IMG/VR virus record: IMGVR_UViG_3300025872_000046
Span: 19,468 to 83,467 of that record
Length of the DNA: 64,000 bases
Strand: one strand, 5' to 3'
From: a virus
Positions 25,902 through 63,212 of this stretch are shown piece by piece. The translations under genes were made by a program, and so were the position numbers. Each line of letters opens with the position of its first letter. Position 1 is the first letter of the stretch. The notes below the pieces were generated by a model. That model ran no database searches. It was not told the origin of the DNA and saw only the letters and a list, made by a program, of their open reading frames with translations.

Positions 25902-26120
25902 ATGCAGTACAGACTCTCTGATGAGACCATTTCTTCCATCGCAAAGCTCGTCCAGCTCGCCATCCTGACGGGCACGGACGTCGTTGACAATCTTCGCACT
26001 CTGCGTCTTGAAGCCCAGGGAGAGGAGCTCACCCCCACTTCCGAGTTCAACGAGAACTTCCAGAAGAATCTCGATGACCTTGCGCAGAAGGCTCTGGATC
26101 TCCAGAATGACGTCAACTGA
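25902..26120 (+). CDS. Small hypothetical protein upstream of dUTPase
   Basis: It encodes 72 residues from ATG 25902, seven bases after AAGGAG; a GTG at 25896 overlaps the previous stop. The helical sequence includes IAKLVQLAILTGTDVVDNLR and a Gln/Asn-rich end. It overlaps the dUTPase gene by 14 bases. No known domain. Confidence 0.65.
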   Translation: MQYRLSDETISSIAKLVQLAILTGTDVVDNLRTLRLEAQGEELTPTSEFNENFQKNLDDLAQKALDLQNDVN

Positions 26121-26490
26121 TGACAGGCTGACAGAGATCTTTCGCCTGCGTGAAGAGTTCATGCAGGCAATCTCAGAGAAGATGCCGGGCTATTATCCTG
26201 ACTGGCCGATAGACGTTTCCAAGAAGCAGAGCCAGGTCATCCTTCGCGATTCCGTCCTTCGAGGAGTCGAGGAGATGTTCGAAGCTCTTCAGCACCTGAA
26301 GAACTCGAAGCCCCATCGACAGACTGAGGTGGCTCATTTTGAGAGGGAGGAGTTCCTCGAGGAGATTGTCGACGCTTACAATTACTTCTTGACGACTCTG
26401 GTGCTGATTGGAATCAGTCCCGATGAGCTTCACGATGCTTACCGCAAAAAGCACGAAAAGATCTTAGAGCGTCTAAAAAACGGTTACTGA
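26107..26490 (+). CDS. All-alpha dUTPase / MazG-like NTP pyrophosphohydrolase
   Basis: It encodes 127 residues; ATG 26107 is chosen because upstream codons are an out-of-frame shadow. VEEMFEAL gives the ExxE metal motif and FLEEIVDAYNYFL the second acidic helix (ExxD). The ending YRKKHEKILERLKNGY matches dimeric dUTPase_2-type proteins. It probably hydrolyses dUTP (and perhaps dCTP) to monophosphate, giving dUMP for ThyX and keeping U out of DNA. Confidence 0.75.
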   Translation: MTSTDDRLTEIFRLREEFMQAISEKMPGYYPDWPIDVSKKQSQVILRDSVLRGVEEMFEALQHLKNSKPHRQTEVAHFEREEFLEEIVDAYNYFLTTLVLIGISPDELHDAYRKKHEKILERLKNGY

Positions 26491-34848: not shown

Positions 34849-35045
34849 AGCCGGGGGACGTTGTCCGCTTCATAGCAGGCAGCCCAGAGGTTCTCTACGT
34901 GGTCCTGAAGGGTCCGTACGAACACTCTGAACTGTCTCAGTTTCGCATCACTGAGGTGAGCGTCGTCTACGACGTCTACTCAGCGGGCGGAGGCGTGTTC
35001 ACTGCCGTGAAGCGTGAGCTGTTGGAAATTGTCAAGCGCTGCTGA
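34845..35045 (+). CDS. Small SH3-like hypothetical protein
   Basis: It encodes 66 residues. MKPGDVVRFIAGSPEVLYVV has the look of a small SH3-like beta-barrel (PGDVVR). Function unknown. Its stop region holds the -35 box for dnaE. Confidence 0.58.
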   Translation: MKPGDVVRFIAGSPEVLYVVLKGPYEHSELSQFRITEVSVVYDVYSAGGGVFTAVKRELLEIVKRC

Positions 35046-35070
35046 ACACATCACACCTCAATTCTACAGT
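35042..35070 (+). promoter_or_regulatory. Candidate promoter of the DnaE-type polymerase gene
   Basis: CTGAAC, 17-base spacer, TACAGT; AAGGAG and ATG 35089 follow. The -35 box matches that of the SSB gene. Confidence 0.55.
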
Positions 35071-35088
35071 ATCTCTCAAGGAGAAAGA

Positions 35089-38000
35089 ATGGTGAATCCG
35101 CCCTCTCGATTCGTGGGTCTACACTCTCACGACGGTGCGAGTACTTTTGACGGTCTAAGCTTGCCGCAAGAGCACATCGACTTCTGTCGTGAGAACGGAC
35201 TAGACGCTTGGTCGATGACGAACCACGGTCACATGAACTCCTTCGGCCACGCCTGGCTTCATACTGATAAGCTGCGGAAGGCTGGCGGCAACTTCAAGCT
35301 CATTCCGGGCTGCGAGATGTACCTCCACCCAGACCTTGATGAGTGGAGACGAGATCTCGACCGCTCGAAGGGAATCGTGAATGAGGACGTCATCACTCCC
35401 CTCTCTGCTGAGAAGGACGAGAATGATGAGACGACTGCGGTGACTGTCGAGGAGGTCGCCTCTCTCACGATGGAGAATGAGGAGGAGACTAAGTCAACGA
35501 AGTTCTACAACCCTGTGACACGTCGACACCACCTTGTTGTCATTCCGAAGACCTCTGCAGCGCTGGAGAGGTTGTTCGGTCTCGTGTCGAAGTCGTACTC
35601 CGATGGTTTCTACCGTTTCCCACGCATCGATTACAAGATGCTGAAGGAAGCTGCGAAGGGCGACTTCTTCGTCTCGACTGCCTGCATCGGCGGGCCTCTC
35701 GCCTGGGAAGTCTTCCAGGAGATGCAGGGTGTAGAATTTGACCAGCTCAGCTGGCGTCTTCTCGATGACAAGAGTCTAATGAACAGGACCATGTCCCGAA
35801 TCGGTTCAACCTGGGACCGGATCGTCGATGCCGTCGGTCGCGAGAATGCTCACCTCGAGCTCCAGTTCAACAAGCTTCCGGCCCAGCACTTGGCGAATCG
35901 AGCCCTCATCGAATTTGCCCGACGTGAGGGGATCACCGACAAGCTCGTGGTCACCTGTGACTCTCACTACGCACGTCCTGAGCACTGGCGTGAACGTGAG
36001 ATCTACAAGAAGCTCGGCCGGCTCAACTTCGAGGCGTTCAATCCTGACTCTCTTCCAAAGTCGAAGGACGAGCTCAAGTGCGAACTCTACCCGAAGAATG
36101 CGAAGCAGGTCTGGGAGACCTACATGGAGACCCGCGGCGAGGCGGATTTCTATGATGACGTGATGGTGAAGGACGCCGTGGAGCGGACCTGGGACATCGC
36201 TCACAATTCGATTGGAGACGTCCAGCCCGATAAGTCTGTCAAGCTTCCGACCTACATCATCCCCGAGGGGAAGACGGCGATCGAGGCTCTCACGGAATCC
36301 GTGAAGGAGGGGCTGAAGAAGAAAGGGCTCCACACGAACAAGGAGTATGTCCAACGCGCAGTTTACGAGCTGAAGGTCATCAAGGACAAGGACTTCGCCT
36401 CGTACTTCCTCACGATGAAGGAGATCATCGGCCTCGCAAAGACAAAGATGTTCGTCGGTCCCGGTCGAGGTTCGGCTGCCGGTTCGGTTGTCTGCTACGT
36501 TCTCGGCATCACTGACGTGGATCCGATCAAGTACGATCTCCTCTTCGAGCGGTTCCTCTCTCCTGACCGTGAGGGCTTGCCTGACATCGATACCGACATC
36601 GAGAACCGAGACCAGCTCCTCGATCTGCTCAGGACCAACTTCGGCACTGAGAACATCATTCCGATCTCGAACTACAACACCTTCAAGCTCAAGTCTCTCA
36701 TTCGAGACATCTCGAGGTTCTACGGTCTTCCCCTCGATGAGGTGAACGAGGCGTTGAAGACGGTCGACGTGGATGTCGTCAATGCGACGAAGAAGGTCGG
36801 TGACGATAAGAACCTCTTCGTCCTCACCTACGAAGACTCTTATGAGCACTCGAAGCCGTTCAAGGACTTCATCGATCGGTATCCTCACATTGGCGAGAGC
36901 GTCAAGGTCCTCTTCAGGCAGAACAAGTCGCTCGGTCGTCATGCGGGTGGCGTAATCGTTTCCGAGAGGATCTCTGAGCGGATGCCCCTCATCGCCGCCA
37001 GAGGCGAGCAGCAGACCCCTTGGGTCGAGGGCATGAACTACAAGCACCTCGAAATGCTTGGGTGGGTGAAGTTCGACCTCCTCGGTCTTGAAACTCTGCG
37101 AATCATTCGACGTTCGATCGAGCTCATCCTCCGTCGTCACAAGGGAATTGAGAACCCGACGTTCGATCAGGTTCGAGCCTGGTTCGATGAGAACATGGCG
37201 AACGAGGTGATCGACTTCAACGACCAGAAGGTGTATGAGAACGTCTACCACCAGGCGACGAAGCGCACTCCAGGAGTCTTCCAGCTCACTTCCGGTGGAG
37301 CCCAACGACTCTTCCAGAAGGCGAAGCCGAGGTCTCTCGTTGACATCGCTACACTAACTTCGATCTATCGTCCCGGTCCCCTCGCAGCACACGTTGACAA
37401 GCTCTACCTCGAGGCGAAGGCGAATCCCTACGCGATCGACTACAAGCACCCTCTCATCAAGCAGGTACTCGAACCGACATTCGGCTGCATCATCTTCCAG
37501 GAACAGCTGATGGCCCTCTGTAACGTGGTGGCCGGGTTCCCGAAGTCAGAGTGCGACAAGGTCCGAAAGAACATCCTGAAGCGTCAGGGCGGCAATCCTG
37601 AAGAGTCGATGAAGAAGGCGAAGGCGATGAAGGATTCCTTCGTCCAGGGCGCAGTGAAGAACGGAGTGAAGGAGGACATCGCCTCGAAGCTCTGGGATGA
37701 TATTCTCTTCTTCGCAGGTTACGGGTTCAACGCATCTCACGCAATCTCCTACGCGATGGACTCCTACTACTGCGCCTGGCTGCTCACCTACTACGAGGCT
37801 GAGTGGCTCTGCGCATACATGGAGTCCATGATCGGCAGCCCAGAGGCGAGGGCAAAGGCGATCGCTGACATCAAGTCCTTCGGGTATGAGATCGGCAAGG
37901 TCGACATCAACGAATCTGGAATGGACTGGGAGATCTCAAAGACGAGGAAGTCATTCATCCCCTCATTCTCCACTCTGAAGTCTGTCGGTCGAGCGGCGAT

Positions 38001-38658
38001 TGAGGAGATCCTTGAGTTCCGACCCTACACTGACGTGAAGAGCCTCCTCTATGATGATCGAGGAATCTGGAAGAACTCGAAGTTCAACCGACGGGCCCTC
38101 GAGGCGCTGATCAAGATGGGAGCCTTCGAGTCTCTGCCCTTCGTCGGCCCCGGTTGCTTCTTCAGCTCCTACAAGCACATGTACCACTGCATCATTGAGA
38201 ACCAGCACCTCATCAGGAAGGCGACGAAGAAGGACCCGCAGATGGGTTGGAAGAAGCTGCAGGAAATTGCGGTGGAGACGTGGGGCATGGAAGAATGGAC
38301 AAGGCGAGAGCTTGCCCTCTTCCAGAAGGAGATCGTTGGCTCTGTCGATGCGGTGAGCCTCATCCCTAATGATGTGAGAGAGCGCCTCGAGAAGAACGAC
38401 GTGAGGTCCACTGATCACTGGACAGCGCTCGACCTCTACTGGTTCGTGGTGAAGGCAACGACAATGAAGAAGACAAAGAAGGGCAAGCCCTATCTCCTCC
38501 TCGATGTCGTCGGTGAGTCTGGCATCTCGAAGCGGATGTACATGTGGGACTGGGACGGTCGGGCAGAGTTCGAACCTTACACTGCGTGCCTCGGTGAGGT
38601 TGACAGCTCTGACTTTGGGCTTAGTGTTCGATTGCGCAAGATGAAAATCTTGGGGTGA
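35089..38658 (+). CDS. dnaE: DNA polymerase III alpha-type replicase (DnaE-like)
   Basis: It has 1189 residues; ATG 35089 follows AAGGAG. The N-terminal PHP domain begins LHSHDGASTFDG, and the TDHG motif of active PHP sites reads TNHG, so it is probably not catalytic. The polymerase core has GPGRGSAAGSVVCYVLGI and LPDIDTDIENR (residues ~497-507) with two catalytic Asp. Next come GVIVSERI, KFDLLGLETL, GVFQLTSGGAQRLF and CIIFQEQLM, then FNASHAISYAM. A C-terminal OB-like region (KKGKPYLLLDVVGE) follows. It would be the processive replicase. No proofreading epsilon-type exonuclease or clamp gene was recognised in this window. The enzyme coexists with a small family-A polymerase. Confidence 0.95.
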   Translation: MVNPPSRFVGLHSHDGASTFDGLSLPQEHIDFCRENGLDAWSMTNHGHMNSFGHAWLHTDKLRKAGGNFKLIPGCEMYLHPDLDEWRRDLDRSKGIVNEDVITPLSAEKDENDETTAVTVEEVASLTMENEEETKSTKFYNPVTRRHHLVVIPKTSAALERLFGLVSKSYSDGFYRFPRIDYKMLKEAAKGDFFVSTACIGGPLAWEVFQEMQGVEFDQLSWRLLDDKSLMNRTMSRIGSTWDRIVDAVGRENAHLELQFNKLPAQHLANRALIEFARREGITDKLVVTCDSHYARPEHWREREIYKKLGRLNFEAFNPDSLPKSKDELKCELYPKNAKQVWETYMETRGEADFYDDVMVKDAVERTWDIAHNSIGDVQPDKSVKLPTYIIPEGKTAIEALTESVKEGLKKKGLHTNKEYVQRAVYELKVIKDKDFASYFLTMKEIIGLAKTKMFVGPGRGSAAGSVVCYVLGITDVDPIKYDLLFERFLSPDREGLPDIDTDIENRDQLLDLLRTNFGTENIIPISNYNTFKLKSLIRDISRFYGLPLDEVNEALKTVDVDVVNATKKVGDDKNLFVLTYEDSYEHSKPFKDFIDRYPHIGESVKVLFRQNKSLGRHAGGVIVSERISERMPLIAARGEQQTPWVEGMNYKHLEMLGWVKFDLLGLETLRIIRRSIELILRRHKGIENPTFDQVRAWFDENMANEVIDFNDQKVYENVYHQATKRTPGVFQLTSGGAQRLFQKAKPRSLVDIATLTSIYRPGPLAAHVDKLYLEAKANPYAIDYKHPLIKQVLEPTFGCIIFQEQLMALCNVVAGFPKSECDKVRKNILKRQGGNPEESMKKAKAMKDSFVQGAVKNGVKEDIASKLWDDILFFAGYGFNASHAISYAMDSYYCAWLLTYYEAEWLCAYMESMIGSPEARAKAIADIKSFGYEIGKVDINESGMDWEISKTRKSFIPSFSTLKSVGRAAIEEILEFRPYTDVKSLLYDDRGIWKNSKFNRRALEALIKMGAFESLPFVGPGCFFSSYKHMYHCIIENQHLIRKATKKDPQMGWKKLQEIAVETWGMEEWTRRELALFQKEIVGSVDAVSLIPNDVRERLEKNDVRSTDHWTALDLYWFVVKATTMKKTKKGKPYLLLDVVGESGISKRMYMWDWDGRAEFEPYTACLGEVDSSDFGLSVRLRKMKILG

Positions 38659-38686: not shown

Positions 38687-39754
38687 ATGAAGATCGGTTA
38701 CAGCTTCTGGGGTTACCTCACGCCGTTTGAGGAGAACAACATCGTTGCGACACCTGACGGCGAACGTGGCAACCGGGTTGACTTCGTTGATGAGATGTTG
38801 AAGCGTGGCCACAAGGTCACAAGGCTCCAAATCCAAAGAGATGAGAAGCCATACAAGGGCGTTGAGCTCCACGCCGACGGCGGGTTTCCTGATGTCGATG
38901 TCGCTTACTTTGAGTGGCGTTGGCCAACTTGGAAGAATGATGTCTCAATCGGTGGAGACAAGGCAACCGAGCCAGACTATCGACGGCAGATGGCTTGCCT
39001 CGAGCACTATCACAGCAGGGGCGTGCCCATCATCATCCACGACGGCGACCTCAAGATGACTCCCGAAGAGGAGCTCATGTTTCCCAACGCAGTCCTCACC
39101 GATGCTTGCGTCAATTCCAGAGTGCAGACTCGAAAGAGATTGACGCTTCCGTGGTGCAATTATCTCAATCGTCGACTGAAGACAGTCCCTTACTCGTACA
39201 ACTACACTTATGTGGGCAACAACTACGAGCGCGACAAGCAGTTCAAGAAGTACTACGGCATGCCCGCTCGGGGCCTCCGCGACCGGGGCGTCCAGACGAT
39301 GGTCCACGGCAACTGGCTCGAACGCAGTCCAGAGCGCAGGGATCCTGCTGAGCTCCTCACGGAAAATCCCTACGTCTCGTTCGGTGGACGTCTCGCATAC
39401 AACGAGATCTTCGATGCCTTCAACCGTTCCATCGCGGTGACTCACATCACGAAGGATGAGTACACTCCATACGGCAACATCACTGGTCGCTTCATGGAGT
39501 CCGTCATGGCTGGCACCGTGGCTCTCATCCCGAGCGAGTACATCCACGCTCGTCCGGTGGGTCTCGGTGAGTTCGTCGTTGACAGTCCAGAAGACATCAT
39601 CCGCTGCGTCAACATCCTCAACAACATGTCTGCCAATGACCGGCACCAGATTGTGCAGGAACAGGAACGCGCTCTACGTAAGGTTGTAGACATTCGACCT
39701 GAGCATAGAGTTGATATCATCGAGGCAGTTGCCAAGGGAGAGATCAAGGCATGA
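38687..39754 (+). CDS. Glycosyltransferase-like protein (GT-B type)
   Basis: It encodes 355 residues with GAAGGAG upstream. The N-terminal half has a Rossmann-like start (MKIGYSFWGYL...RGHKVTRLQ) and PIIIHDGDLKM. The C-terminal half has VSFGGRLAYNEIFDAF and YGNITGRFMESVMAGTVALI, a late GT-B pattern where the donor sugar nucleotide binds, then a helical end. Its stop overlaps the kinase gene (ATGA). Operon neighbours are a dNMP kinase and a ThyA-family enzyme, so DNA-base glycosylation is one candidate job; host-surface or protein glycosylation is the alternative. Confidence 0.65.
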   Translation: MKIGYSFWGYLTPFEENNIVATPDGERGNRVDFVDEMLKRGHKVTRLQIQRDEKPYKGVELHADGGFPDVDVAYFEWRWPTWKNDVSIGGDKATEPDYRRQMACLEHYHSRGVPIIIHDGDLKMTPEEELMFPNAVLTDACVNSRVQTRKRLTLPWCNYLNRRLKTVPYSYNYTYVGNNYERDKQFKKYYGMPARGLRDRGVQTMVHGNWLERSPERRDPAELLTENPYVSFGGRLAYNEIFDAFNRSIAVTHITKDEYTPYGNITGRFMESVMAGTVALIPSEYIHARPVGLGEFVVDSPEDIIRCVNILNNMSANDRHQIVQEQERALRKVVDIRPEHRVDIIEAVAKGEIKA

Positions 39755-40278
39755 AAAGAAATGTTCTATGCAGTTTCGAGGGTGTGGACCGAACGGGAAA
39801 GTCGGAGATTGCTCAAGAGCTCTCTCGACAGCTCGGAGTCCCATACTTCAAGAATACGGGTGAGTGGTCAACAGACCTCAAGGACCCATCATATTTCAAG
39901 AATCTTCTCGTCTATGGCGGCACGTTCCTCATCGACTTCATCCACCAGACGCAGCCTGATGCGATCCTTGATCGGCACTATCCGTCAGAGTGGGTCTACT
40001 CTCGCTTCTTCAATCGTGAGACGAACGAGGAAGTTGTCCGTAAGATTGACGAGAAGTTTGCTGAAGCGGGCGGCAAGATTATCCTTTGCCGCCGCAAGAG
40101 CTACAATGGGATCCAGGATGACCTTCATACCTACGTTGACAGTAACGTTCTCGAGGGGCTCGATCGGCTTTACGATGAGTTCACGAAGTGGACAAAGTGC
40201 CCGGTCCTCACGGTCTGGGTCGATGATGAAGACCTCAGCCGTGAAGTGAAGGAAATTCGGGAGTGGTTGAGCGCATGA
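39751..40278 (+). CDS. Deoxynucleoside-monophosphate (thymidylate-type) kinase
   Basis: It has 175 residues. The P-loop is CSFEGVDRTGKSEIA, with LDRHYPSEWVYSRFF carrying the DR(Y/H) motif and IILCRRK a later strand. These fit the dTMP kinase superfamily. It would convert dTMP, or a modified dCMP made by the next gene, to the diphosphate. It overlaps both neighbours by ATGA. Confidence 0.8.
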   Translation: MKRNVLCSFEGVDRTGKSEIAQELSRQLGVPYFKNTGEWSTDLKDPSYFKNLLVYGGTFLIDFIHQTQPDAILDRHYPSEWVYSRFFNRETNEEVVRKIDEKFAEAGGKIILCRRKSYNGIQDDLHTYVDSNVLEGLDRLYDEFTKWTKCPVLTVWVDDEDLSREVKEIREWLSA

Positions 40279-41231
40279 AGTCGTATGAAAGTTTCACTCG
40301 AGCCTACGTGGACCTCTGTCGTCTCATCAGAGATGAACATGAGTTTGAGTCGGCCCCTCGGGGGATGAAGATAAAGGAGAGCCTCGGTGTCCAGTTTCGT
40401 ATCAAGAATCCTCGCGACCGTCTCCCTCTGGTTGCGGCTCGAAACTTCTCGGCCGCGTACTTCGTTGCGGAAACGCTCTGGTACCTGTCAGGATCCGATT
40501 CCACTGCATGGATCTCCCGGTACGCTTCCTTCTGGAAGAACATCACAGACGACGGTGTGACGGCGAACTCCGCCTACGGTGCTCGAATCTTCCGTCCGCA
40601 TGACAGGATTGCTAACAGAGGAATTGTGCAGTGGGATTACGTGAAGGAGGAGCTCCGAAAGGACCCTGACTCCCGTCGAGCGGTCATCCACATCAGGACC
40701 CCGGACGACTCCCTCCACGCAGTGAAGGATGTCCCATGCACTCTCGCCCTCCAGTTCTTCATCCGTGAGGGCAAGCTTCATCTCCACGTCAACATGCGAT
40801 CCAGCGACATCATCCTCGGGATCGCTTATGATGTCCCTGCTTTCACGATGATGCAGGAGATCATGGCAAACGAGCTGGGCGTCGGTCTTGGTGAGTACGT
40901 CCACACTTCAAACTCTCTTCACTGTTATGAAAGAGACTTTGAGATGCTGGACGCAATCGCTAATGACGAGGATGCGAAAGGTTGTCCCATGATGCCCCTG
41001 CCTGAAGTCTTCCCAACAGAGAAGCTTCTTGCCTATGAAGGGATGGTCTGGGGTTTGGGCGAGGCTGAGCTTAGGGACGGAGTCCACGAGATGGGAAGAG
41101 AAGAACAGCTCGTGAGAGACTGGACGCTGGTTCTTGGAAGTTTCAGAGCGAGGAAGCTGAAGGATGATCGACTCGCAAAGATCCAGCTTCTTTCTACTTC
41201 TGACAGAGTTTACCACTTCTACAATAGGTGA
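40275..41231 (+). CDS. ThyA-family enzyme, likely dCMP methylase/hydroxymethylase type
   Basis: It encodes 318 residues; ATG overlaps the kinase stop. Family residues are intact: Glu66 in AETLWYL, catalytic Cys155 in DVPCTLALQF, RSSD (175-178), and SLHCY (His216, Tyr218). The position that is Asn177 in E. coli thymidylate synthase is Asp186 here (LGIAYDVPAF). Asn prefers dUMP; Asp at this site is found in T4 dCMP hydroxymethylase and makes thymidylate synthase accept dCMP. With ThyX encoded separately, an enzyme making 5-hydroxymethyl- or 5-methyl-dCMP is the better reading. Ordinary thymidylate synthesis is not excluded. Confidence 0.85.
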   Translation: MKSYESFTRAYVDLCRLIRDEHEFESAPRGMKIKESLGVQFRIKNPRDRLPLVAARNFSAAYFVAETLWYLSGSDSTAWISRYASFWKNITDDGVTANSAYGARIFRPHDRIANRGIVQWDYVKEELRKDPDSRRAVIHIRTPDDSLHAVKDVPCTLALQFFIREGKLHLHVNMRSSDIILGIAYDVPAFTMMQEIMANELGVGLGEYVHTSNSLHCYERDFEMLDAIANDEDAKGCPMMPLPEVFPTEKLLAYEGMVWGLGEAELRDGVHEMGREEQLVRDWTLVLGSFRARKLKDDRLAKIQLLSTSDRVYHFYNR

Positions 41232-41234
41232 GAT

Positions 41235-42230
41235 ATGAAAGCGCTAGTTACTGGTGGGGCAGGTTTTATCGGGTCCAATCTAGTTCACAGTCTTGTGCAA
41301 CTTGGCTGGACTGTCGATGTTGTCGATGACATGTCAAACGGCAGGATTGAATTTCTCGAAGGTGTCAATTTTCGAGTAGTCCCTGGGTTCCTGCTGGATC
41401 AATATGAAGAAAAGTATGAGCCCAATCGAGAAGGGCAGGTTCTTGTTGTCGAGGCTGACATGGAGATTCCCGGGATCCTCAAGAGAATCAGCGCGGGCAA
41501 GTATGACACTGTTTTTCATCTCGCGGCAAACCCACGAGTAGAGTACACTGTACAGCATCCGGCTGCGACGACTGACGTGAACTGCACACGGACGCTCTCG
41601 CTTCTTGAGGCAGTGCAAACTTCTCCAACTCCTGTCCGCTTTGTCTTCTCTTCGACCTGCGCAGTGTACGGCGATGCGAAGATCATCCCCACGAGCGAGA
41701 GCGCTGAGAAGCTGCCACTCTCCCCATACGGTCTGCAGAAGTCCTACGTTGAGGACTACATTCACATCGCAAATCGCCTGCACGGTCTCGACGCTGTCTG
41801 CCTGCGTTACTTCAATGTCTACGGTCCTCGACAGGTTGCCGACTCGGCTTACGCAACAGCGATTACGGCATGGTGCAATCGAGTGAAGGAGGGTAAGCCT
41901 CTCCGTTCTGATGGCGACGGTGAACAGTCACGTGACATGGTGTTTGTTGGTGACATTGTAGGGGCGAACATTCTCGCCGCGACAAGGGTCGAGAAGTTCA
42001 ACGGTGAGCGCATCAACATCGGAGCTGGTGAGAGATTCACGAACAATAAGATCCTCAACATGTTTCGTGAGCGCTTCAAGGACATTGAGATCGTTCACGC
42101 TCCCCCTCGACCGGGTGACGTTCGACACACTCTGAGTGACATTCGATACGCTGGAGAGCAGCTCGGATACACACCGCAGACCAAGTTCGAAGACGGACTC
42201 AGGCTCACCTGGGAATGGTGGGGTCTCTAA
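41235..42230 (+). CDS. NAD-dependent sugar-nucleotide epimerase/dehydratase
   Basis: It has 331 residues. TGGAGFIGSNLV is the NAD-binding GxxGxxG, FVFSSTCAVYG holds the catalytic Ser/Thr, and SPYGLQKSYVE the YxxxK pair. RYFNVYGPRQ and a C-terminal substrate-binding part fit extended SDR enzymes acting on UDP- or GDP-sugars (GalE/WbpP type). It would prepare an activated sugar, possibly for the glycosyltransferase upstream. Confidence 0.85.
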   Translation: MKALVTGGAGFIGSNLVHSLVQLGWTVDVVDDMSNGRIEFLEGVNFRVVPGFLLDQYEEKYEPNREGQVLVVEADMEIPGILKRISAGKYDTVFHLAANPRVEYTVQHPAATTDVNCTRTLSLLEAVQTSPTPVRFVFSSTCAVYGDAKIIPTSESAEKLPLSPYGLQKSYVEDYIHIANRLHGLDAVCLRYFNVYGPRQVADSAYATAITAWCNRVKEGKPLRSDGDGEQSRDMVFVGDIVGANILAATRVEKFNGERINIGAGERFTNNKILNMFRERFKDIEIVHAPPRPGDVRHTLSDIRYAGEQLGYTPQTKFEDGLRLTWEWWGL

Positions 42231-42637
42231 TGGCAGCCCCAAAGGAAGCGTGGACGAGCAGGTCTACCCGAGAATCAAAGCCCTGGGGCGATACAATCGT
42301 CTGGCACGCTCTACAATCGATACATGGCAAGGTGATCACGATACACGAGGGCTGCAGGACGAGCCTGAAGTATCACAACATCAAATCAGAAGTTTTCTTT
42401 GTCCTCAGCGGGACCGTGAGGGTCACTTACGGAAATTCGAGGACTCTGAAGGACAGCGAAAAGCATCCATACAAGACGAACTTACTGAAGACGGGCGATA
42501 CTTTCATCGTCCAATCAGAGTGTCCCTATCGCTTTGAGGCTCTCGAAGACTCCCGTCTCATCGAGGTCGGAGACAGAGTAGACGATACACCCATCAGAGT
42601 CGAGGACGACTATGGCCGTGCGAAGAAAGAGTCATGA
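42230..42637 (+). CDS. Cupin-fold protein (mannose-6-phosphate isomerase C-terminal-like)
   Basis: It encodes 135 residues; ATG overlaps the epimerase stop (TAATG). KPWGDTIVWHA resembles the start of GMP/PMI cupins, with SLKYHNIKSEVFFVLSGTVRV as cupin motif 1 and TGDTFIVQSECPYRF as motif 2. It may isomerise or bind a sugar phosphate or sugar nucleotide with the epimerase. Catalytic status is unclear because motif 1 has few metal ligands. Confidence 0.7.
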   Translation: MAAPKEAWTSRSTRESKPWGDTIVWHALQSIHGKVITIHEGCRTSLKYHNIKSEVFFVLSGTVRVTYGNSRTLKDSEKHPYKTNLLKTGDTFIVQSECPYRFEALEDSRLIEVGDRVDDTPIRVEDDYGRAKKES

Positions 42638-42677: not shown

Positions 42678-43097
42678 TTACCCTGACAAGTCTGAGAGAA
42701 TGAGACGCGAACCACTCATCCTGCTTCCTGTCTTGCTCCCACTTTCCAACTCTACCAATGTCTCTCGGTTTGCTCGACTCTCTACTCCGTACCTGTCAAG
42801 AAGAGTCTTCTTGATCTTGTCCCTTGTCTCCTTGAGCTGCATCGGGTTTTCTACTCCGTGAAGCTCAAGCATCTTCTTCTTGGCGAGGTTGTACCCCTCC
42901 CTTCCGACCCTGATGGACTCACCCCTGCATCGCCTACTGCAGAAAGTCAATCCGCTGGAGGAGTGACTGGCGTTAGCGGGTCTCTTGTCATAGGTGGTCT
43001 TGCAAAAATCGCATAGATATCGAAGGACGACGTTGATCTGCTTTGACTGCTCACCGTTCTTCTTGACCCTTGGGATCTCGATCCTCTCTATGAACAT
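42678..43097 (-). CDS. Remnant of a homing-endonuclease-type protein
   Basis: It encodes 139 residues on the minus strand, one of only two genes so placed. CDFC...FCSRRC is a zinc-ribbon-like pair. KKKMLELHGVENPMQLKETR followed by KKTLLDRYGVESR is the repeated YG-type DNA-binding module found next to nuclease domains in free-standing phage endonucleases. No GIY-YIG, HNH or PD-(D/E)XK core remains, and the C-terminal ~30 residues (Ser/Gly/Arg-rich) look like readthrough of truncated DNA. It is convergent with the cupin gene and divergent from thymidine kinase, typical of an inserted selfish gene now degraded. Confidence 0.6.
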   Translation of the reverse strand: MFIERIEIPRVKKNGEQSKQINVVLRYLCDFCKTTYDKRPANASHSSSGLTFCSRRCRGESIRVGREGYNLAKKKMLELHGVENPMQLKETRDKIKKTLLDRYGVESRANRETLVELESGSKTGSRMSGSRLILSDLSG

Positions 43098-43148
43098 TTT
43101 GCCTCCTGTTATTAGATGTTCTCAACATTGATGTGGAGTGGAAAGACT

Positions 43149-43724
43149 ATGATAAAGAAGTCACGGAAGTCACGGATGAACAAAGAGTTTGTAATTTATT
43201 GCGGTCCCATGTGGTCGGGGAAGACCACAAGGTTGACTGCCGCAGTCGAGCGGCACCGCATCAGGCAGACTGAGGTTCTCTGTTTCAAGCCCGACATCGA
43301 CGGTAGGTACGCGGCAAGCTCCATCGTCACCCACTCAGGCTCGAGGATGGATGCTCTTTCAGTGAGCAAGGGAGAGCAGATAGTCCAACACGTCGCAGAT
43401 CGAAGACCCGAGGTCGTTGCCGTTGACGAGGCGTTCATGATCGAAGGATGCGCCGATGCGTTGATAGAGATTTTCAAGAGGGGCGTCTCGGTCTACGTAT
43501 CGTCCATCGAGTTGTCGGCCAACTTGAAGTCATTTAGCGAGATAGAAAGGATGATGCCTTTTGCGACGAGGGTCGAGAAGTGCACGGCAGTATGTGTCTC
43601 CTGCGGAGATGACGCTGCTCTCACTCATCGAAGGGTTCCGTCTCTCGAAGAGATCTTGGTGGGTGGAGCAGATAGTTATGAACCGATGTGCTGGACTTGT
43701 CACCCACTTGCTAGCATCACCTAA
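43149..43724 (+). CDS. tdk: Thymidine kinase (type II)
   Basis: From ATG 43149 it has 191 residues; ATG 43176 (182 residues) is also plausible. VIYCGPMWSGKTTRL is the P-loop, CFKPDIDGRY and IVTHSG follow, VVAVDEAFM is Walker B, and the lasso zinc site is CVSCGD...CWTC. It phosphorylates thymidine for dTMP salvage. The frame extends upstream to 43116 and there encodes a second MWSGKT peptide with different codons, next to the endonuclease remnant. Confidence 0.9.
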   Translation: MIKKSRKSRMNKEFVIYCGPMWSGKTTRLTAAVERHRIRQTEVLCFKPDIDGRYAASSIVTHSGSRMDALSVSKGEQIVQHVADRRPEVVAVDEAFMIEGCADALIEIFKRGVSVYVSSIELSANLKSFSEIERMMPFATRVEKCTAVCVSCGDDAALTHRRVPSLEEILVGGADSYEPMCWTCHPLASIT

Positions 43725-43770: not shown

Positions 43771-44613
43771 ATGGACATGATACTTGAGCCAACTTCGGTC
43801 GACCTCGTCATCTACCACGCAAATTGCACCGACGGTTTCGGAGCGGCATACGCAGCGTGGAAGCTCCTCGGTGACAGGGCCGAGTATCACGCTGCAAAGT
43901 ATGGGGAATCACCTCCCGATGTGAAGGGGAAGAATGTCGTGGTTCTCGACTTCTCCTATGACAACCAGACGACAAAGCTCCTCATGAAGGAAGCAAAGGG
44001 ATTCCTCATCATCGACCACCACAAGTCGGCGATGGTCGAGCTCCACGACGTCTCCTGCACCCGCTTTGACATGACGCACAGCGGAGCGATGCTCGCCTGG
44101 AACTTCTTCCACCCGGGTAAGGAGGCTCCCCGGATGATCAAGTTCATCGAGGACCGTGACCTCTGGAAGTGGGAGATTCCCTACTCGAAGGAGTTCTCCG
44201 CAGCCTTCGACATGGTGCCATTCGATTTCGAGGAGTTCGACAAGTACCTCGACGACTCGGCTGTCGACTCTGCACAGGAGCGCGGAGCCTACATCCTCGC
44301 CTACTCGAAGACGGTGATCTCCAAGATCTCGAAGAACGCCCACTCACGGAAGCTCGGCGGCAAGGACGTCCTCGTGGTGAACTCACCCCACTGGATGTCG
44401 GAGATCGGAGCGGCCCTCTCCCCCAAGTGCGACTTTGCGGTGATCTGGTACTACGATCACGAGACGAGACAGGTGAAGGTGAGCCTCCGAGCCCACCACG
44501 ACGACTCGGACGTGAGTGAGGTCGCAAAGAAGTACGGGGGCGGCGGTCACCGGAAGGCTGCCGGATTTGCCCTTCCGCCCGACACCAGCATCGAGACGAT
44601 CTTCGACAAGTGA
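43771..44613 (+). CDS. DHH/DHHA1 phosphoesterase
   Basis: It has 280 residues. YHANCTDGFGAAYAAW (motif I), VVVLDFSYD (II) and FLIIDHHKSAM (DHH motif III) coordinate two metals. KVSLRA then VAKKYGGGGHRKAAGFALP is the DHHA1 GGGH substrate-binding motif. Relatives are NrnA-type oligoribonucleases/pAp phosphatases and RecJ-like nucleases. It probably degrades short oligonucleotides or signalling nucleotides; which one cannot be told here. Confidence 0.85.
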   Translation: MDMILEPTSVDLVIYHANCTDGFGAAYAAWKLLGDRAEYHAAKYGESPPDVKGKNVVVLDFSYDNQTTKLLMKEAKGFLIIDHHKSAMVELHDVSCTRFDMTHSGAMLAWNFFHPGKEAPRMIKFIEDRDLWKWEIPYSKEFSAAFDMVPFDFEEFDKYLDDSAVDSAQERGAYILAYSKTVISKISKNAHSRKLGGKDVLVVNSPHWMSEIGAALSPKCDFAVIWYYDHETRQVKVSLRAHHDDSDVSEVAKKYGGGGHRKAAGFALPPDTSIETIFDK

Positions 44614-44628
44614 ACGGAGTGACCACCA

Positions 44629-45108
44629 GTGACTACTTCTGACGATGATAAGGTAATCCACATCAATGACTTCATCGATTCTCAGAGAGACACAGAGAGC
44701 CCAATGAGACCCACCTGGGATCAGGTGTGGATGGAAACTGCAAAGATACTTTCACGAAGGTCACTGGATCCGAGGTTCCAAGTCGGAGCCGTCATAGTCG
44801 CAGAGGACAACACGCAGGTCCTCGCGGTGGGGTACAACGGTGACCACAGGGGCGGACCAAATTCCGTGGAGTCCACCGAACCCGGACAATCTGGGTTCAT
44901 CCACGCCGAGATCAACGCCCTCATAAAGTGCGACTTCAACCATCCGAAGGCGAAGAAGATGTACCTCACCCTCTCTCCCTGTCGTCAGTGCGCGAAGGCG
45001 ATCATCAACGGTGGGGTGAGGGAAGTTGTGTACCTTGAAGAATATAGGGACACAAGCGGGGTAAAGTTGCTCATAGAATCCGGCCTAACAGTCCGTCGAT
45101 ATAGATAG
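44629..45108 (+). CDS. dCMP deaminase-type cytidine deaminase
   Basis: It encodes 159 residues from GTG. HAEINAL supplies the zinc His and catalytic Glu, SPCRQCAKAIING the two zinc Cys, with NGDHRGGPN before them as in dCMP deaminases. It makes dUMP from dCMP for ThyX. In a phage that uses modified dCMP it would also lower the normal dCMP pool. Confidence 0.88.
   Translation: MTTSDDDKVIHINDFIDSQRDTESPMRPTWDQVWMETAKILSRRSLDPRFQVGAVIVAEDNTQVLAVGYNGDHRGGPNSVESTEPGQSGFIHAEINALIKCDFNHPKAKKMYLTLSPCRQCAKAIINGGVREVVYLEEYRDTSGVKLLIESGLTVRRYR
45100..45107 (+). promoter_or_regulatory. Candidate late promoter element TATAGATA
   Basis: The octamer resembles the T4 late consensus TATAAATA. It lies about 45 bases before the start of the virion-type operon at 45153. 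The same octamer precedes the gene at 63711. Confidence 0.4.
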
Positions 45109-47851: not shown

Positions 47852-48556
47852 GTGAAGATCAGCGAGAAGTTCCTTGAGAACGTTGTCAGTGAGGCGCTGG
47901 CAGAGGTCTCAGCCCCGGGTCGCCCACAAAAGAGGGTAGACGAGGCCTACGTCGTCCAAACTAAGAAGTTTGACGTGAAGACTGAGTCTCTCTCCGAGAA
48001 GAGCAAGAAGGCTCACCAGGAGCTGATGGATGGGTACATCAAGGCTCTCAACGAGGTCTCTGCCCAATTAGATACTGCTGACAGAGAAAGCTCGAACCCA
48101 AACAATTCTACATTCCGCAGCCTGAAGGTTGACGAAGCACACAACATCAATGCCTCATTCCTTCATGGAATGTTCTTCGATAACATCGGTTCACTCTCTT
48201 CAAAGGTTACTGTGGATTCGATCTCCTATATGCGCCTCGCCCGGGATTTCGGAGACTTCAACAAGTGGCAGAAGGACTTCATCGCCTGCGGTCTCGCCGC
48301 GAGGAACGGGTGGGTCGTCACCTGCTACAACACTTTCCTCAAGCGCTACATTAACGTCGTCGTTGACCTCCACTCCGGGAACGTGCCCTTCGGCTGCATG
48401 CCAGTGATCGTCGTTGACTGCTGGGAGCACACCTACTATCGTGACTACCTGAAGGACCGCAAGTCCTACATCTTCGCGATGATGAAGGAGCTCAACTGGG
48501 ACAAGATCGAGGAGCGATTCGATAAGACTGAAAGAGTCGCAAAGGTGATGACATGA
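47852..48556 (+). CDS. Fe/Mn superoxide dismutase homologue with N-terminal (L/I)xE peptide
   Basis: It has 234 residues from GTG directly after the previous stop. The C-terminal domain is typical: VIVVDCWEHTYYRDY (metal-binding Asp189 and His193), then RKSYIFAMMKELNWDKIEERF. FLHGMFFDNI supplies His105. The first His ligand (His55 in KKAHQELMDGYIKALN) is one residue out of register with SodB, so its role is less sure. The enzyme would convert superoxide to hydrogen peroxide and oxygen. The extra N-terminus (ENVVSEALAEVSAPG) resembles the cleavable peptides of neighbouring virion genes, suggesting it is packaged. Confidence 0.75.
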   Translation: MKISEKFLENVVSEALAEVSAPGRPQKRVDEAYVVQTKKFDVKTESLSEKSKKAHQELMDGYIKALNEVSAQLDTADRESSNPNNSTFRSLKVDEAHNINASFLHGMFFDNIGSLSSKVTVDSISYMRLARDFGDFNKWQKDFIACGLAARNGWVVTCYNTFLKRYINVVVDLHSGNVPFGCMPVIVVDCWEHTYYRDYLKDRKSYIFAMMKELNWDKIEERFDKTERVAKVMT

Positions 48557-55701: not shown

Positions 55702-57721
<2,020 letters not shown>

Positions 57722-57734
57722 TTGCGCTGGCCTA

Positions 57735-57788
57735 TTCCAATCTGTATCACAATATGGTACAATCTTAAAGGTTGGAAAAGGTCCAACC
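57735..57788 (+). promoter_or_regulatory. Candidate promoter and leader hairpin of sigma-factor gene
   Basis: TTCCAA, 17-base spacer, TACAAT (57758-57763), then a perfect stem GGTTGGA (57770-57776) with TCCAACC (57782-57788). The RBS CGGAG and ATG 57808 follow. The stem may act on mRNA stability or translation. Confidence 0.45.
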
Positions 57789-57807
57789 AAACCCCCACGG
57801 AGACCGG

Positions 57808-58578
57808 ATGGCTGATACTCTGACTCACTTCTTCAAGGACGTTGGTAAGCACACTCTTCTCACCCGAGAGGATGAGGCACGGCTGGCGCAGCGGATCGAG
57901 GCAGGTGACAAGCGTGCCAGGGAGATCTTCATCCAGTCAAACCTCCGACTGGCGATCTCCATCGCGAAGCGGTACATGAACAAGGGCTGCTCCTTCGAGG
58001 ACCTCATCCAGGAGTCCAACATCGGCCTCATCAAGGCGGTGGACCGGTTCGACTGGCGCCGAGGCTTCAAGTTCAGTACCTACGCTTCGTGGTGGATTCG
58101 CCAGTCGGTCCGCCGGCATGTGACCGACCAGTCCTGCAACATCCGGATGCCTGCTTCGGCCAACGCGTTCTACTACCGCGCCAAGATGATGATTCAGGAC
58201 TACACTGCAGAGTTCGGCTCTCCCCCGAACGATGATGAGGTGGCTGAGTTCATGGGGGTCTCTCTCAACAAGTACCTCTCTCTCATGAACACCTACCGCG
58301 GCACGCTCTCTCTCGATGCTCCGGCAATGTCTGGCGACGCCGACGGTCCTCGCCTCCACGAGACGATCGCCGATCACAACCAGCACGACCCCATCGAATC
58401 GATGGACCGCGAGAAGGTGGTCGCCATTGTCCGTGAGGCCCTCGCCTCCCTCACTCCCCGCGAGGAGAAGGTCATCCGTCTCCGCTTCGGCATCTCGGAG
58501 GAGCCAGATGACAGTGACAACTATCCAATCTCTCAGGAAGAAATCAACGCTCTCGATTCCCGCCTCGGAGGTGTCTAA
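57808..58578 (+). CDS. Sigma-70-family factor lacking region 4.2
   Basis: It has 256 residues. Region 1.2 (LTREDEARLAQRIEAGDKRA), region 2 (SNLRLAISIAKRYMNKG, FEDLIQESNIGLIKAVDRFD, GFKFSTYASWWIRQSVRR) and region 3 are clear. Region 4.1 is present (LTPREEKVIRLRFGIS, 215-230), but the protein then ends in a polar tail, with no helix-turn-helix for -35 recognition. In region 2.4 Gln99 matches Gln437 of E. coli sigma-70, while the Thr440 position is Arg. It resembles T4 gp55, which lacks region 4 and reads only a -10-like late promoter. The next gene, coupled by TAATG, encodes a separate region-4-like HTH. Confidence 0.88.
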   Translation: MADTLTHFFKDVGKHTLLTREDEARLAQRIEAGDKRAREIFIQSNLRLAISIAKRYMNKGCSFEDLIQESNIGLIKAVDRFDWRRGFKFSTYASWWIRQSVRRHVTDQSCNIRMPASANAFYYRAKMMIQDYTAEFGSPPNDDEVAEFMGVSLNKYLSLMNTYRGTLSLDAPAMSGDADGPRLHETIADHNQHDPIESMDREKVVAIVREALASLTPREEKVIRLRFGISEEPDDSDNYPISQEEINALDSRLGGV

Positions 58579-61394: not shown

Positions 61395-63212
61395 ATGTGT
61401 GGAATCGTAGGTTACATCGGCAAGAAGCAGGCAACCCCAATCCTCATCGAGGGCCTCCGGCGTCTGGAGTATCGTGGATACGACAGCGCCGGAATCGCCG
61501 TTTTTGATGGCGGACACATCGTGACATCGAAGGCTCTCGGTCAGGTGAAGTTCCTGGCTGAGAACGCGAACCTCGAGGGCAGGGCGGGGGTCGGTCACAC
61601 GAGGTGGGCGACACACGGTGGCGTCACCATCCCGAACACCCACCCTCATACAGACATGAGTGGGAACATTGCGGTTGTCCACAACGGGATCATCGAGAAC
61701 TACGCGGAACTGAGAAACCAGCTCACTGCAGAGGGTGCTGCTTTCCTCTCAGAGACGGACACAGAGGTCATCCCTCACCTCATCAGGAAGCACTACAGGG
61801 GCGACCTCCTCGCCGCCCTCCTCGAGACCCTCCCTCTACTCAGGGGGACTTACGGGATCGCAGTTGTCTCCTCACTCAGTCCGAGGACGATCCTCGTGGC
61901 ACGGAATGGATCGCCCATCGTAATCGGTGTCGGGAAGGGTGAGAACTGGATTGCATCAGACTCATCCGCGTTTGCTCAGCACACGAGAGAAGTCGTCTAC
62001 CTCGAGGACGGTGATGTCGCCTCAGTGACGATGGAGGGCTGGGAGATCGAGAAGCACGGTGGATCCCTCGCGGCAAGGAGGGCGGTGACGATCTCAGAGG
62101 AGTGGGTTGACGCTGAGAAGGGTAACCACCCGCACTTCATGCTGAAGGAGATCTACGAGCAGCCCACGACTCTCCGACGCTGCATGACTGGTCGTCTCCT
62201 CGAGAACACCGCGAAGCTGGGTGGCATCAACCTGACACCGAGAGAGATCGTCAACCTCCAGAACCTCGGCATCGTCTCCTGTGGGACCTCTTACCACGCT
62301 GGCCTGGTCGCAGCACACGCCTTCGAGGAGCTGGCTGGTCTGAGGACGAACGCAGAGATTGCCTCGGAGCTGAGATACCGCAACCCGCCCATCGGGACTG
62401 ACGATCTCTACCTCGGCGTCTCCCAGTCCGGTGAGACTGCGGACACCCTCCACGCCCTCAGGATGGTGAAGTCACGGGGAGCCCATGTCGCAGGTGTCAT
62501 CAACGTGGTGGGATCGACAATCGCGAGGGAGTGTGGGCAGGGAGTCTACATCCACAGCGGGCCTGAGCAGGCGGTCGCATCCACGAAAGCCTTCACCTCA
62601 CAGGTCACCGCACTCCTCCTCCTTGCCCTCTCCTTCGGGACGACACGAGGTCTCTCCTCGGTGGAGGGATGGCGGGTCTCGAAGGCTCTCGGTGAGATTC
62701 CCGAGGCTGTGAATCGCTGGCTGGACGGTGGGCCAGAGATAGTGAGGGAGGTCGCACAGTCTGTCTACGGAGCAAAGCAGGTCTTCTTCATCGGCAGGGG
62801 AGTCTCTGCTCCCGTGGCAATGGAAGGCGCTCTGAAGCTGAAGGAGATCTCCTACATCCCTTCCTTCGCTTATCCTGCCGGAGAGATGAAGCACGGTCCC
62901 ATTGCCCTCATCGACAGTGAGACTCCGCTCATCGCCATCGTTCCCAAGGACCAGTGGCGCGACAAGACGGTCTCCAACATCATCGAGGCGAAGGCGAGGG
63001 GCGCGAAGATCATCTCAATCGCCGACCCCCTTGATGAGGAGGTCGAGGCGTTGAGCGACCACTTCATCCCCGTCCCCGGAGCGGGCCACCACCTCGCTAG
63101 CCCACTTCTCACCGTCATCCCACTCCAGCTTCTCGCCTACGAGGTAGCGAACCTGCTCGGTAGGGACATCGACCGTCCCAGGAACCTCGCGAAGTCCGTC
63201 ACCGTGGAGTGA
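61395..63212 (+). CDS. glmS: Glutamine--fructose-6-phosphate aminotransferase (GlmS)
   Basis: It has 605 residues, the full bacterial length. Cys2 (MCGIVGYIG) is the glutaminase nucleophile after Met removal; TRWATHGG, HNGIIENY and SDTEV-type SETDTEVI follow. The isomerase half has two SIS domains with SCGTSYHAG, SQSGETADT, GPEQAVASTKAFTSQ and EGALKLKEISYI, and ends with the typical PRNLAKSVTVE. It makes glucosamine-6-phosphate from fructose-6-phosphate and glutamine. The ATG lacks an RBS and sits just after a -10 box. It could feed UDP-GlcNAc for glycosylation, with glutamine from the GSII gene. Confidence 0.96.
   Translation: MCGIVGYIGKKQATPILIEGLRRLEYRGYDSAGIAVFDGGHIVTSKALGQVKFLAENANLEGRAGVGHTRWATHGGVTIPNTHPHTDMSGNIAVVHNGIIENYAELRNQLTAEGAAFLSETDTEVIPHLIRKHYRGDLLAALLETLPLLRGTYGIAVVSSLSPRTILVARNGSPIVIGVGKGENWIASDSSAFAQHTREVVYLEDGDVASVTMEGWEIEKHGGSLAARRAVTISEEWVDAEKGNHPHFMLKEIYEQPTTLRRCMTGRLLENTAKLGGINLTPREIVNLQNLGIVSCGTSYHAGLVAAHAFEELAGLRTNAEIASELRYRNPPIGTDDLYLGVSQSGETADTLHALRMVKSRGAHVAGVINVVGSTIARECGQGVYIHSGPEQAVASTKAFTSQVTALLLLALSFGTTRGLSSVEGWRVSKALGEIPEAVNRWLDGGPEIVREVAQSVYGAKQVFFIGRGVSAPVAMEGALKLKEISYIPSFAYPAGEMKHGPIALIDSETPLIAIVPKDQWRDKTVSNIIEAKARGAKIISIADPLDEEVEALSDHFIPVPGAGHHLASPLLTVIPLQLLAYEVANLLGRDIDRPRNLAKSVTVE

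Follow-up and report, generated by a model that had tools for sequence, protein, structure and literature searches.

A predicted cytosine hypermodification cassette with an exchangeable tailoring slot in an uncultured tailed phage

Why does a phage that encodes the thymidylate synthase ThyX also carry a ThyA-family enzyme, set among genes for a glycosyltransferase (GT), a nucleotide kinase, a sugar epimerase and a cupin? The question is raised by a 64,000-nt stretch of DNA (the window; coordinates given below are positions in it), which comprises bases 19,468-83,467 of the linear 83,467-bp IMG/VR viral contig IMGVR_UViG_3300025872_000046. A first-pass annotation had described five consecutive, mostly overlapping genes at positions 38687-42637, and this was confirmed: all are intact open reading frames (ORFs) on the plus strand without internal stops, and their junctions measure, in gene order, -4, -16, +3 and -16 bases (overlapping or nearly abutting). 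It had also suggested that a modified deoxycytidine monophosphate (dCMP) is made, phosphorylated and incorporated, and that the base is glycosylated. This remains the best-supported reading, given the hydroxymethylase residues, the presence of ThyX, the relatedness of the GT to the DNA beta-glucosyltransferase (BGT) of phage T4 and the replacement of the GT by a carbamoyltransferase in related cassettes. We therefore put the probability at roughly three in four that an uncultured tailed phage carries these genes as a cassette for cytosine hypermodification, in which dCMP would be converted to 5-hydroxymethyl-dCMP (5hm-dCMP), phosphorylated, incorporated into DNA and glycosylated.

Residue signature of the ThyA-family enzyme

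The third gene of the cassette (40263..41231, plus strand) encodes a ThyA-family protein of 322 amino acids (PF00303, E-value 1.6e-34), in which the nucleophile Cys159 and the catalytic Glu70 of the ThyA fold are present. Its further signature residues are Trp91, Tyr105, Arg138/139, Asp156, Thr160, Ser180, Asp182, Asp190, His220 and Tyr222. Within the ThyA family, cytosine is distinguished from uracil by Asp instead of Asn at position 177 of the Escherichia coli enzyme. The deciding residue is Asp190 if translation starts at GTG (40263), or Asp186 if it starts at ATG (40275), and the aligned residues are Asn177 in E. coli, Asp179 in T4 gp42 and Asp186 in MilA, the cytidine monophosphate (CMP) 5-hydroxymethylase of mildiomycin biosynthesis. 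The earlier report of an Asp (Asp186) at the site that decides between deoxyuridine monophosphate and dCMP was hence correct, and its use as a marker of the dCMP type could be extended, as the residues that select deoxyribose, activate water and contact the folate were found as well.

Ribose and deoxyribose are separated by Ala/Lys versus Ser/Arg, and the exchange A176S/K133R converts MilA from CMP to dCMP (PMC5175136). Whereas MilA has Ala176 and Lys133 for ribose, the window protein carries Ser180 and Arg138 at these sites, which is the deoxyribose type. Hydroxymethyl instead of methyl transfer goes along with Asp145 and Ser94 in T4, compared to Leu143 in E. coli, and the T4 D145N mutant is dead (PMC6400193). 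Asp156 of the window protein corresponds to T4 Asp145, a site at which E. coli thymidylate synthase has Leu and the enzyme of AXL1 has Asn; furthermore, Ser is found in the column of T4 Ser94 and Ile at E. coli Trp83. The site of E. coli His147, described as the second position separating modified from unmodified phage contigs in the MetaGPA study (PMC8670742), is occupied by Thr160, and Thr is also present in T4 gp42, MilA and the Enterococcus phage VPE25. In sum, the protein shares with gp42 the residues Cys148, Asp179, Asp145, Ser94, Ser169, Arg123 and Asp171 (T4 numbering).

All 54 distinct ThyA sequences that we collected from phages have the deciding Asp, a count that is partly biased because most of them came from a scan with two peptide patterns, one of which (YDVPAFT) contains this very residue; the GT-based scans for loci are free of this bias. 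The Asp was also present in 53 bacterial sequences. Ser180, Arg138, Asp156 and Thr160 likewise occurred in all 54 phage homologues, except that one has Ser for Thr160. By sequence, the closest solved structures are MilA CMP 5-hydroxymethylases (149 bits), while thymidylate synthases reach at most 90 bits. In a phylogeny with T4 gp42, which had been proposed as a check, the window protein falls into a clade of its own with 40 sequences (SH-aLRT 99), and gp42 stands elsewhere in the tree, on a very long branch.

ThyX (Thy1, PF02511; 21673..22383, plus strand), an independent thymidylate synthase, was found on 21 of the 24 contigs searched, including the window contig. The ThyA-family protein thus need not make thymidine monophosphate (dTMP), and together with the residues above this indicates that it is very probably a dCMP 5-hydroxymethylase. 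A Tet_JBP oxygenase, which would point to the TET/JBP route to 5-hydroxymethylcytosine (5hmC), gave no match in a search that lacked a responding positive control.

The glycosyltransferase and its exchangeable slot

The first gene (38687..39754, plus strand, 355 amino acids) encodes a GT-like protein of a new family. Its match to Pfam is weak (PF13524, E-value 1.7e-4) and lies below the curated cut-off, so that we rejected a plain assignment to this family. No tblastn match to the GT family was obtained among 50,697 phage records, and a DNA-level search of phage isolates for relatives of the window found none. When a profile of 26 relatives (A7) was compared to all PDB sequences, only T4 BGT was retrieved (E-value 1e-7; next match 0.72), and hhalign of this profile against the BGTs of T4, VPE25 and Lactobacillus phage ATCCB gave 95% with an E-value of 3e-8. 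Arg268 and Glu271 are invariant in the 26 sequences and align with Arg269 and Glu272 of the uridine diphosphate (UDP) site of BGT. The AlphaFold2 model (pLDDT 79) shows a GT-B fold and matches T4 BGT (1qkj) with a TM-score of 0.62 over the whole chain. These data suggest that the protein is a distant homologue of T4 BGT, and we propose that it puts a sugar on 5hmC. A similar combination, in which a homologue of T4 BGT is encoded close to an Asp-type ThyA that shares this signature, is found in the Enterococcus phages VPE25 and VFW and in phage ATCCB, which also carries a UDP-galactopyranose mutase; the cytosines of VPE25 are bisulfite-resistant and modified (PMC4999554). Unlike the window protein, the GT of these phages belongs to the T4 BGT family proper, and their records gave no match to the window GT.

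The same gene order recurs in several related viral contigs, and the cassette genes are co-located in many of them, down to about 50% ThyA identity. Together with the constant Asp in ThyA, this indicates that the clustering exceeds chance. A ThyA gene lies within the fetched flank at 30 of the 34 viral GT loci; three of the remaining four are truncated where the contig stops, and L055 encodes an Asp-type ThyA at a different place on its contig. Throughout the 40-sequence ThyA clade, each cassette contains exactly one tailoring candidate, which is a GT in 25 cases, a carbamoyltransferase in seven and another transferase-like protein in eight (seven from one unclassified family and one PF13524 protein). 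Mapped on the ThyA tree, the GT label changes at least nine times, or seven times if only well-supported branches are trusted. Sister cassettes of the window's ThyA clade carry the carbamoyltransferase, of which no homologue was found in the window contig or in L012. A carbamoyltransferase of the same family modifies 5hmC in DNA as well as 5-hydroxymethyl-dCTP (5hmdCTP) (PMC8670742). This MetaGPA pathway resembles the window in having an Asp-type ThyA beside a tailoring transferase, with a dCMP deaminase, whereas in the window the slot holds a GT. The alternation of chemically different groups in one slot is consistent with a free hydroxyl handle on cytosine.

The unclassified family in the slot (A8, about 430 amino acids; e.g. 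L068:3719-5023, L072:4689-5999 and five others) is possibly a new transferase. It has no match in Pfam or PDB, and as profile comparison did not connect it to the window GT either, calling it a glycosyltransferase would be a guess from its position. In L011 (4287-8014) and related carbamoyltransferase loci, the cassette includes an ATP-grasp/HAD-like protein, and most of these carbamoyltransferases are accompanied by a protein of 215-230 amino acids with no assigned function.

The proposed route and its alternatives

From these observations we infer a route in which the individual reactions, the addition of sugar at the DNA level and the protective role are all predictions. The ThyA-family enzyme would convert dCMP and methylene-tetrahydrofolate to 5hm-dCMP. 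The adjacent kinase (39751..40278, plus strand, 175 amino acids) has a P-loop, GVDRTGKS, at residue 11, belongs to the thymidylate kinases of PHROG 761 (E-value 7.6e-10) and, in profile searches, weakly matches SP-beta YorR and deoxyguanosine kinase; we propose it as a (hydroxymethyl-)dCMP kinase that, with host or other kinases, would raise 5hm-dCMP to the triphosphate. The C-family DNA polymerase III alpha subunit encoded directly upstream of the cassette (35014..38658, plus strand) would then incorporate 5hmdCTP in place of deoxycytidine. Most probably once the DNA has been polymerised, the GT would link a sugar to the hydroxymethyl group, and the glycosylated DNA would be shielded from host nucleases. 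The fourth gene (41235..42230, plus strand, 331 amino acids; PF01370, E-value 8e-52) encodes an extended-SDR protein similar to nucleotide-sugar 4-epimerases, with GGAGFIG at residue 7 and YGLQK at residue 165. It could supply or tune the nucleotide sugar, most simply by converting UDP-glucose to UDP-galactose, and UDP-galactose is our simplest guess for the sugar donor.

Several GT subclades have sugar genes of their own as neighbours, consistent with a sugar donor that is adapted to the respective GT. A UDP-galactopyranose mutase accompanies an eight-row clade (support 100/100) and, separately, L084; other subclades are accompanied by a second SDR protein or, in L055, by an RGP protein, and the group of the window has none of these. 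The RGP gene (L055:4205-5263; plant UDP-arabinopyranose mutase family, PF03214, E-value 1.7e-46) is phage-encoded and stands two genes before the GT relative. A furanose mutase (UDP-galactopyranose mutase or RGP) was looked for in the window and rejected, as it is absent there. It may be speculated that the GT family puts furanose sugars (galactofuranose or arabinofuranose, from the adjacent mutases in several subclades) on 5hmC DNA, that phages and actinobacterial nucleoside clusters share the cassette as a tailoring module with exchangeable parts, the same hydroxymethylcytosine being given a glycosyl group in one case and a carbamoyl group in another, and that the window phage carries galactosyl- or galactofuranosyl-5hmC. 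We regard this extended proposal as tentative and, taken as a whole, doubtful.

The last gene (42215..42637, plus strand, 140 amino acids; PF07883/PF01050) encodes a single-domain cupin resembling the C-terminal part of phosphomannose isomerase. A metal-dependent phosphomannose isomerase was rejected, as the candidate metal His varies among relatives (His, Asn or Tyr) and the model (pLDDT 88) matches cupins in general; a comparison of the cupin profile with PDB gave no match. The first-pass annotation had counted both epimerase and cupin among the genes of the candidate operon. The epimerase can be retained as the proposed donor supply, with the qualification that it is not tied to the GT alone, and nothing that we found supports a role for the cupin.

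A number of observations weigh against the proposed route. The similarity of the GT to BGT is confined to the C-terminal UDP-binding half, and the N-terminal acceptor half is unrelated in sequence; as the donor-binding half alone is alike, DNA is a presumed acceptor. Foldseek moreover places several non-DNA GT-B enzymes alongside BGT. The epimerase is kept in carbamoyltransferase cassettes (L080 and L081 keep the cupin too), for which we have no explanation, and it may therefore not serve the GT; on these contigs no GT of the A7 or A8 type was found, although both searches lacked a positive control. Furthermore, no clear dCTPase of the T4 gp56 type was found, the only candidate being a weak match to the all-alpha dUTPase_2-like NTP pyrophosphatases (25984..26490, plus strand), which might clear dCTP or dUTP and is assigned with low confidence. 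Finally, the bacterial relatives of the GT sit in clusters that resemble nucleoside-metabolite pathways, so that the acceptor could be a nucleotide.

This last point leads to an alternative in which the GT acts before replication on 5hm-dCMP or 5hmdCTP, and the kinase is specialised for the bulky glycosylated nucleotide ahead of the polymerase. A scan of GTDB genomes yielded 58 loci with the GT family, nearly all actinobacterial and 24-35% identical. At 53 of them an Asp-type ThyA is present, in most cases alongside a carbamoyltransferase and an epimerase. In these clusters (L111-L168, e.g. L165:2778-12959), a MilA-like ThyA, a NodU/TobZ-type carbamoyltransferase, the GT family of the window and an epimerase are conserved, together with an APH-type phosphotransferase, a histidine phosphatase and a gene similar to S-adenosylhomocysteine hydrolases, all of which would suit a GT that works on nucleotides; they possibly represent an undescribed nucleoside pathway. 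In three of them (L115:6001-7715, L121:6001-7823 and L153:2875-4628), the GT relative directly precedes a ThyA that is 48-53% identical to MilA and has Lys and Gly in the ribose-determining positions, which makes these enzymes likely to use CMP. The phage kinase adjoins the GT and is conserved with it, and the related 5hmC carbamoyltransferase accepts 5hmdCTP too (PMC8670742). However, among PDB sequences the GT is related to T4 BGT alone, an enzyme that acts on DNA, and the kinase also accompanies the other transferase types and is thus not specific to a glycosylated nucleotide. Overall, glycosylation before replication appears unlikely.

A dCMP 5-methylase or 5-hydroxy-dCMP synthase activity of the ThyA-family enzyme, leading to 5-methylcytosine (5mC) or to an ether-linked sugar on 5-hydroxycytosine as in phage RB69, is improbable. 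Both types belong to the same superfamily and use dCMP, and the arabinosyl-5-hydroxycytosine system of RB69 and Mosigvirus (PMC6024577, PMC13390438) likewise combines, within one region, a ThyA-superfamily dCMP enzyme with sugar-supply genes, a thymidylate kinase and a transferase. Against the methylase stand Asp156 and Thr160, which are replaced by Asn and Pro in AXL1, a relative of the 5mC phage Xp12 and the single 5mC-type reference sequence. At the sites of T4 Trp82, Asp145 and Asp171 the window protein has Trp, Asp and Asp, whereas the single reference for the synthase, RB69 ORF048c, has Ala, Glu and Asn and thus lacks the folate-contact and water-activating residues; we took ORF048c as the 5-hydroxy-dCMP synthase of PMC13390438 because it is the sole ThyA-like gene in the RB69 modification region. 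The comparison is limited by having a single reference for each type.

Likewise, it is hard to sustain that GT, epimerase and cupin are chance neighbours serving a surface glycan or virion glycosylation, next to an enzyme that makes plain 5hmC. Cassettes that lack the GT still have the epimerase, glycan pathways often include cupins and epimerases, and one relative (contig G007) has a separate polysaccharide-type cluster (L171) with a UDP-galactopyranose mutase, two glycosyltransferases, a UDP-sugar dehydrogenase-like protein and an epimerase. Set against this are the association of GT and Asp-type ThyA across phages and at most of the bacterial loci, the alternation of the slot with a carbamoyltransferase and the similarity of the GT to a DNA glucosyltransferase. 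The G007 cluster lies far from the modification cassette of that contig, and its mutase, being surrounded by other glycosyltransferases, was rejected as support for the sugar of the window phage. That the genes form a normal operon for dTMP synthesis, in which ThyA is a variant and DNA is not modified, as the neighbouring thymidine kinase and dCMP deaminase and the thymidylate-kinase-like protein might suggest, is scarcely credible given ThyX and the Asp found at both the E. coli Asn177 and Leu143 sites in every homologue.

Genomic surroundings and implications

Downstream of the cassette, a thymidine kinase (43116..43724), a DHH phosphoesterase (43771..44613) and a dCMP deaminase (44629..45108) follow on the plus strand and, like the polymerase upstream, are conserved neighbours. 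Between cupin and thymidine kinase lies a small minus-strand ORF (42678-43097) with weak similarity to homing endonucleases. It looks like a mobile insertion, because the size of this gap differs among the window, L003 (about 11 bases) and L002 (about 870 bases). Elsewhere, the window encodes the C-terminal domain of an Fe/Mn superoxide dismutase (47852-48556), a GroEL-like chaperonin (55875-57476), an RNA polymerase sigma factor (57772-58578) and, as a further amino-sugar gene, a GlmS-like protein with glutamine amidotransferase and SIS domains (61395-63212, PHROG 13807).

The window resembles T4 in the ThyA-family residues, in a GT profile related to T4 BGT only and in the DNA polymerase nearby. 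It differs in the separate position of its ThyA branch, in an acceptor half of the GT that is unrelated in sequence, and in having its own nucleotide-sugar epimerase, a cupin, a separate ThyX and a C-family polymerase. As hydroxymethylation of dCMP is already known, what is new here is the GT family together with the exchangeable slot and the genes for sugar supply. The GT represents a predicted family of DNA glycosyltransferases that none of the searched phage isolates matched, and the genes beside its members suggest that viral DNA may bear sugars different from glucose. In the conserved slot, the presumed decoration of 5hmC (sugar, carbamoyl or other) is exchanged between close relatives. 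The findings also connect a DNA-modification module of phages to actinobacterial clusters, which have the hydroxymethylase, transferase, carbamoyltransferase and epimerase in common with it. If the reading is true, hypermodification would be a modular and fast-changing form of counter-defence, and these cassettes would be a source of new enzymes for 5hmC labelling.

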